In this document: in pieces, positions 24,598 through 25,009 of the stretch
Layout of the letters: each line of letters opens with the position of its first letter
Position numbering within the stretch: position 1 is the stretch's first letter
NCBI GenBank assembly: GCA_026421245.1
Contig: JAPKDJ010000041.1
Location: 1 to 34,935 of the forward strand
Length of the DNA: 34,935 nucleotides
Source of the DNA: Akkermansiaceae bacterium
GTDB lineage: Bacteria; Verrucomicrobiota; Verrucomicrobiia; Verrucomicrobiales; Akkermansiaceae
Direction of reading: 5' to 3'
Notes under the pieces: generated by a model
Told to the model about the DNA's origin: nothing
What the model saw: only the letters and a program-made list of their open reading frames with translations
Databases searched by the model: none
Made by a program: the position numbers and the translations under genes

Positions 24598-24948
24598 ATG
24601 AAAACTACTATCACCATGATCGCTGCTTGCGCAGCATTCACGGCCGGAGCCTTCGCCGCTCCAGCCGCTATCGGTGCGACCTCCACTTCGGAAGTCGTTG
24701 CCGCCGACGAAAAAACCGTCACTCTCGAAGTGACGGGCCTTAAATGAGCTGCCGGTTGTCCAAAAAAAGTGCAGGCTGCACTTAAAAGCGTCAAAGGAGT
24801 CTCGAAAGCCGTCTGCGGCAAAAAAAACGGTACCAAGGCCCAAACGGTCGTCACCGCCGAGAAATCAGTGCAGGTCAAAGCCCTCATCCAAGCCCTCAAG
24901 AAAAAAGGCTTCGGTGCTAAGGAAATGACCAAGAAGGGAGACGCCTAA
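24598..24948 (+). CDS. Exported heavy-metal-associated (MerP-like) selenoprotein candidate
   Basis: ATG at 24598 opens a signal peptide (MKTTITMIAACAAFTAGAFA, cleavage near residue 20) and a heavy-metal-associated (HMA) fold: TVTLEVTGLK, then TGA at codon 50 (24745-24747), then AAGCPKKVQAALKSVKGV and a C-terminal half ending at TAA 24946. With selenocysteine the protein has 116 residues and a UxxxC motif where HMA domains normally have CxxC; the downstream spacing to the helix is one residue longer too, so the loop carries an extra residue. A bSECIS-like hairpin lies at 24767-24783. Without read-through the product would be a signal peptide and one strand. Predicted role is periplasmic metal or redox chemistry (inference). 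A strong terminator follows at 24976. Confidence 0.85.
24767..24783 (+). promoter_or_regulatory. Candidate bSECIS hairpin of HMA gene
   Basis: AAGTGCA, loop GGC, TGCACTT form a perfect 7-bp stem (or 6 bp with loop AGGCT). The stem starts 19 nt after the UGA and the triloop 26 nt after it. The upper stem and loop (TGCAGGCTGCA) are strikingly similar to the upper part of the E. coli fdhF SECIS (TGCAGGTCTGCA). Confidence 0.82.
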
Positions 24949-24975: not shown

Positions 24976-25009
24976 AAAACCCCGCATCGCTTCGGCCATG
25001 CGGGGTTTT
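24976..25009 (+). terminator. Strong terminator after HMA gene
   Basis: A perfect 12-bp inverted repeat, AAAACCCCGCAT with ATGCGGGGTTTT, around a 10-nt loop. The A and T runs at its ends could let it act on both strands. It lies 27 nt after the stop and 68 nt before leuB. Confidence 0.92.

Follow-up and report, generated by a model that had tools for sequence, protein, structure and literature searches.

A 2026 inventory counts 119 prokaryotic selenoprotein families or subfamilies (PMC13188914). Among the entries in the part available here are MerT (C/SxxU), a P-type ATPase (UxxC), and NF041115 (UxxU); no UxxxC row is seen in Table 1 of the inventory, where some rows give no motif (PMC13188914). 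The P-type ATPase, MerT, and the NF045683 MerT/CopZ-fusion place selenocysteine (Sec) in heavy-metal transport proteins, which is their likeness to the protein presented here; however, they are membrane transporters by name, whereas the present protein is a free-standing UxxxC domain. NF041115 (UxxU_metal_bind) likewise has Sec in the metal loop of a small HMA-type protein that stands alone, but its motif is UxxU, whereas the present protein combines UxxxC with a signal-like N-terminus. The NF041115 model gives 37.2 bits for residues 37-110 of this protein and 32.4 bits for its paralog (L070), below the cut-off of 95. MerP (TIGR02052) shares the HMA fold and apparent export and differs in that the present protein has Sec for the first Cys and one extra loop residue. 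CxxxC HMA proteins (P0009, P0012, P0025, L130) have the same loop spacing, and signal- or lipobox-like starts by eye, but carry Cys at the Sec position. In addition, the accessible portion of a GOS survey includes, under the name "Mercuric transport protein MerP", a selenoprotein represented by two sequences, with no motif given and no Cys homologs in GOS (PMC2398784, Table 2). Compared by description only, this protein is like the present family in name and marine metagenome source and may belong to it. No description of a UxxxC HMA selenoprotein family was found in the literature searched, most subscription papers being outside its reach.

The window, as the whole stretch of 34,935 nucleotides analysed here is called, probably comes from a bacterium of the Verrucomicrobiales. 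On its plus strand, which also carries the gene features given next, a frame at 24598..24948 runs from ATG to TAA and encodes 116 residues with, at codon 50, an in-frame TGA (24745..24747) that is kept at the motif in relatives and is very likely a selenocysteine codon. The frame opens with a signal-peptide-like N-terminus, MKTTITMIAACAAFTAGAFAA (24598..24660, by eye), and continues as VTLEVTGLK-U-AAGC-PKKVQAALKSVKGV, an HMA-type sequence; the HMA domain, placed by its Pfam PF00403 score and modelled fold, covers residues 42-105 (24721..24912). The second residue of the UxxxC motif is Cys54, a TGT codon (24757..24759) whose Cys is invariant in 43 aligned rows. The initial annotation had described this frame, the signal-like start, the TGA at codon 50, and the Cys at codon 54, and all four agree with the sequence. 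Lipobox-like starts are seen in 12 of 49 rows with a simple pattern, L055 being a doubtful one of the 12. A second TGA-HMA gene of the same genome (L070:1168-1506, G000:C137) is lipoprotein-like and reads GMT-U-PNGC, followed by the hairpin GUGCAGUCUGCAC. On balance, the window gene probably encodes a small HMA selenoprotein with predicted export, and its Sec-x-x-x-Cys loop would be the site that takes up a soft metal ion outside the cytoplasm.

Conservation of the TGA can be followed across the bacterial family. A family-wide search gives matches in 52 of 195 genomes, and TGA stands at the HMA motif in at least 41 of the 195 where the DNA was read. The 41 are a hand listing made after that reading, and a lower bound because G027 (L131, L132), a profile-only match, is left out. 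Outside the TGA set lie 11 matched genomes. Eight of these were read and hold ordinary Cys HMA domains, a remnant (G008), and G084, whose stops lie outside the motif site; in the other three (G002, G176, G180, DNA unread) the rows show no stop. Among 48 full-length TGA frames, picked by a pattern that demands the second Cys and thus leaves lone-Sec forms outside, 47 carry UxxxC and one carries UxxC (L064), which bears out, for frames with that Cys, the three residues between Sec and Cys seen at the outset. Across the window protein and 42 TGA homologs (43 aligned rows), M1, G47, U50, C54, A61, G67, and V68 are invariant. In addition, six comparisons between the window gene and relatives show more third-position changes after the TGA than first- and second-position changes. 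The same TGA and hairpin occur in public contigs L019-L023 from Verrucomicrobiales, Verrucomicrobiaceae, and Akkermansiaceae MAGs, which are the same loci as those of G148, G102, G040, G130, and G138 and add no members.

An order-wide profile search matched 185 of 288 genomes, ordinary HMA domains included, and TGA occupies the motif position in 13 of the 30 order-wide loci read, seven of them UxxxC, four UxxC, and two lone-Sec. When 387 genomes sampled across the phylum were searched (E <= 1e-8), the window gene and its own paralog took the top two places, and the rest are mostly long frames. No further family members were recognised in this sample, six stop-bearing matches outside the order being unread (one TGA inside G491, G551, and G366; TAA or TAG in G401, G526, and G531). 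A search of viral contigs found no relatives of the query.

Relatives with Cys at the same place, and with the same spacing, have the motifs GMTCPNGC and GMTCPTKC, the latter in L130 (G212, same order). One such Sec/Cys pair is GMT-U-PNGCVKSVQSAL in the paralog L070 versus GMTCPNGCVKKVHAAL in P0009, which came up when proteins were searched with the Sec profile. The UxxC branch shows comparable pairs, GVV-U-GGC (L064) and GVT-U-GGC (L120) versus GVTCGGC (L074). In a second profile search, the best 120 of 223 matches include CxxxC in 7 by pattern, plus P0025 by eye, and CxxC in 86. Since the Cys relatives share the spacing, Sec occupies the place that the first Cys has in an HMA branch with CxxxC. 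The homolog alignment at codon 50 proposed in the initial annotation thus gives TGA or Cys in relatives, so that the outcome named there as refuting, a sense codon other than Cys in all close homologs, did not occur, and its claim that TGA lies where the first Cys of an HMA motif belongs is confirmed. Its remark on the unusual three-residue spacing holds in that the spacing is real and conserved, but the spacing is not peculiar to the Sec form, given the CxxxC relatives. A three-residue spacing is also a feature of Sco proteins, whose fold is different and whose CxxxC binds copper.

Downstream of the TGA lies a SECIS-like hairpin, AAGUGCA-GGC-UGCACUU (24767..24783), supported by covariation, codon use, and a recoding test. 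Its stem begins 19 nt and its loop 26 nt after UGA, and it may resemble the E. coli fdhF SECIS, as the initial annotation proposed. It had been described as a 7-bp hairpin with an AGGCT loop; the hairpin is there, but it has 7 bp when the loop is taken as GGC and 6 bp when it is taken as AGGCT. At the exact register, at least 5 bp form in 41 of 41 homologs versus 1.54 expected under uniform random synonymous recoding (41 distinct 48-mers trimmed to 45 bases, which leaves two rows identical), and synonymous recodings of the window peptide reach at least 7 bp in 0.5% of cases. The hairpin counts leave out L064 (UxxC), L065 and L072 (both lone-Sec), L067 (the remnant), and all loci of the order-wide and later searches, while the second domain of L055 is outside the codon counts and inside the covariation alignment.

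Over the 41 distinct sequences, 97.2% of pair cells are formed, and in three pairs both bases have changed: the pair beside the loop from A-U to G-C, one within the stem from U-A to C-G, and the basal one from A-U to U-A. Of the five pair measures, the percentage paired, the number of both-side-changed cells, and the covariation score are each reached by 0 of 500 shuffles; the other two are matched by some shuffles, both-side-changed pairs by 16 of 500 and further pair types by 138 of 500. Slid controls are at most 50.5% paired and score 0.059 versus 0.157 for the hairpin. Because the shuffles keep relatedness, the covariation counts as support and not as a probability. Codon use in the stem is uniform for Val (GTG 39/39), Gln (CAG 33/33), Arg (CGG 8/8), and Ala (GCT 21/21), and less so for Ser at that Ala GCT position (TCT 13, TCC 4), a further Ala (GCA 39/41), and Leu (CTT 36/41). 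Both GCG exceptions in the stem are L063 and L071, in which the partner codon went from GTG to GCG. Seven codons past the stem Val, another Val is encoded by GTC (14), GTT (11), GTA (5), and GTG (3), and the Ala directly after UGA by GCA (10), GCG (7), GCT (4), and GCC (4). Uniform codons also occur outside the stem, namely Ser AGC at codon 14 (13/13) and Gly GGC at codon 1 (9/9).

The fold-test suggested with the initial annotation gives a divided answer: the isolated 21-nt window hairpin, at -7.4 kcal/mol, stands out from shuffles (z -2.52), but the whole 45-57 nt region has a free energy like that of shuffles (z about +0.2), and the best predicted fold over 45 nt is another structure, not the hairpin. 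A published bSECIS model, in the part of the source available, has a loop of 3-9 nt, a stem of 4-16 bp, G in the first two loop positions, a UGA-loop spacing of 16-37 nt, and an energy of at most -7.5 kcal/mol (PMC13188914). Stem and G fit in 41 of 41 sequences, the 3-nt loop and the 26-nt spacing lie within the model's ranges, and the energy limit is reached by 20 of 41 25-nt pieces, the window hairpin having its -7.4 kcal/mol on 21 nt. Run over its own genome, a covariance model of the hairpin scores the window at 63.5 bits, the C137 paralog at 48.7, and a third match at 16.9. The gap below the top two is the informative part, because the window and the paralog were training rows. Rfam at gathering thresholds gives no match in the window.

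The machinery for Sec insertion is present in the genome. It encodes tRNA-Sec (55 bits, anticodon TCA) and selB (299.5 bits, followed by a sulfatase-like ORF), whose joint absence had been named beforehand as fatal to the selenocysteine reading, and selD as well. The selD gene (L141, G000:C68:142009-142938) itself contains an in-frame TGA, SCGG-U-ASKLG, followed by the hairpin CGCAAGUCUUGCG, with an AGUCU apex as in 10 of the 41 family hairpins. Within the bacterial family, selB is above the cut-off in 68 of 195 genomes. It is found in 36 of the 41 TGA-HMA genomes versus 32 of 154 others (p = 2.7e-15, kinship ignored); the five TGA-HMA genomes without selB above the cut-off (G041, G097, G115, G138, G157) are 65-93% complete. 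Taken with the conserved UGA, the covarying hairpin, and the Cys relatives, these genes strongly support the initial selenocysteine reading, and UGA50 is very likely read as Sec, as judged from sequence comparison.

The nature of the domain is indicated by profile scores and a structural model. With C in place of U, the window protein scores 23.8 bits with PF00403, below the gathering cut-off of 24.8, which is passed by P0002 (31.8) and P0003 (25.2). An AlphaFold model built with 43 sequences has pLDDT block means of 81-87 over residues 41-110 (69.9 overall; pTM 0.52) and appears to have the ferredoxin-like beta-alpha-beta-beta-alpha-beta HMA fold. The best PDB matches by Foldseek are 4a48 (TMt 0.88) and, second, oxidised MerP, 1osd (TMt 0.83). 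The description "MerP-like" is therefore apt for the fold, as the model matches 1osd, but not for the family, as the MerP model TIGR02052 gives 39.2 bits versus a cut-off of 92.55.

Soft-metal binding is favoured, by a little, as the main role of the protein. It is proposed that SelB would use the hairpin to insert Sec at UGA50 and that the protein would leave the cytoplasm by means of its signal peptide, some paralogs doing so as lipoproteins. Within the HMA loop, the Sec50 selenolate and Cys54 thiolate might then coordinate a thiophilic ion such as Cu(I), Hg(II), or Ag(I), which could be buffered or passed on. A selenolate stays ionised at a lower pH than a thiolate, forms tight complexes with soft metals, and is more easily re-reduced. 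Such chemistry fits a carrier outside the cytoplasm, since its selenium ligand would be ionised at low pH and, in an oxidising compartment, readily reduced again.

A possible but rather less probable account is that of an extracytoplasmic selenol/thiol redox selenoprotein, in which a Sec50-Cys54 selenenylsulfide is made and broken and no metal is carried. Most uncharacterised selenoproteins are judged likely redox proteins in the part of the inventory available (PMC13188914). The lone-Sec relatives L065, L072, L124, and L132 keep Sec with no second Cys, and a metal partner gene was not found in either the neighbourhood or the genome; for these two reasons the redox account is retained. The genome has no match to MerT, for which control genomes are equally silent, and no metal or selenium gene neighbours were recognised by eye among the 30 most shared ORF clusters of 50 loci. 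Only one heavy-metal ATPase was found in the genome; its sequence contains SPC, by eye, and points to no partner. Against the redox account stand the HMA fold, with metal carriers as the closest solved structures to the model, and the Cys relatives, which, where named, are copper chaperones or metal-binding proteins, by similarity only. As to gene context, the leuB side is common to 13 of the 50 loci, with other contexts in other genera. One of the 13 is L067 (G008:C27:46651-46791), a degenerate gene remnant beside leuB that lacks the TGA site, in a genome that has selB.

Database proteins P0004-P0006, P0053, P0094, P0117, and P0124 are fragments that end at the TGA, and P0011 and P0013-P0017 are fragments that start after it, at the GTG of the hairpin. 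Since the nearest database matches are mostly fragments cut at UGA, annotation hides the family. Gene callers split the gene just as would be expected if the TGA were a true stop, giving a short secreted peptide and a second frame that restarts at the hairpin GTG; this account is nonetheless highly improbable, as the hairpin keeps a constant distance from UGA and covaries, TGA-HMA genomes are associated with selB, Cys relatives run through here without a break, the same pattern occurs twice in one frame in L055 and L112, and a restart at GTG would lose the metal-site Cys and the first HMA strand. That TGA is read as Trp, through a changed code or simple readthrough, has a negligible chance: Trp does stand at the Sec site in P0002 (both domains) and P0003, but 7 of the 22 genes in the window end in TGA, which is thus no general sense codon, relatives have Cys at the site, and L027 and L029 encode a near-P0003 protein with TGA in the DNA, so that the Trp is probably TGA translated with another code table, as some gene callers may apply.

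A family in at least 41 of the 195 genomes of one bacterial family can in this way stay nearly invisible in protein databases. On a wider and more tentative view, Verrucomicrobiales may run an extracytoplasmic Sec-based soft-metal system. This would consist of a clade-wide family of secreted or lipid-anchored HMA proteins with Sec for the first Cys of CxxxC, in UxxxC, UxxC, and lone-Sec forms and in single, tandem, or double domains, with up to four Sec codons, each with its own hairpin, and hidden by gene callers that cut at UGA. With Sec in the loop of a predicted metal carrier and Cys relatives of equal spacing, the family makes the use of selenium as an extracytoplasmic metal ligand directly testable.

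Several variants were observed among the loci read. In L112:354-926 (G212:C31, plus strand), four TGAs lie in one frame: a Lys/Ser-rich stretch past a signal-like start has two of them, and two UxxxC domains have one each. After every one of the four comes a hairpin whose apex is AGUCU; among 74 genomes of the family of G212, the four-TGA frame is seen only in G212. In genus g9, L055:979-1542 (minus strand) has two domains in one frame, each with its own TGA, and TGA-HMA genes occur in tandem in L058 (817-1191 and 1219-1545) and L061 (114-479 and 510-860). The UxxC branch (L064, L120, L121, L122, L123) has another hairpin type, with a CGUGC loop by eye. HMA-like proteins with a lone Sec and no second Cys are found at L065, L072, L124, and L132, and the frames of L065 and L072 have two TGAs each.

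At the 3' side of the window gene, before leuB (25078), a terminator-like stem-loop lies at 24989..25006 on the plus strand, identified by a consensus match only; the region has 3 such matches versus 1.3 expected from shuffles. Terminator-like stem-loops also occur on the minus strand within the HMA gene, at 24716-24736 and 24767-24783, the latter being the complement of the SECIS-like hairpin.
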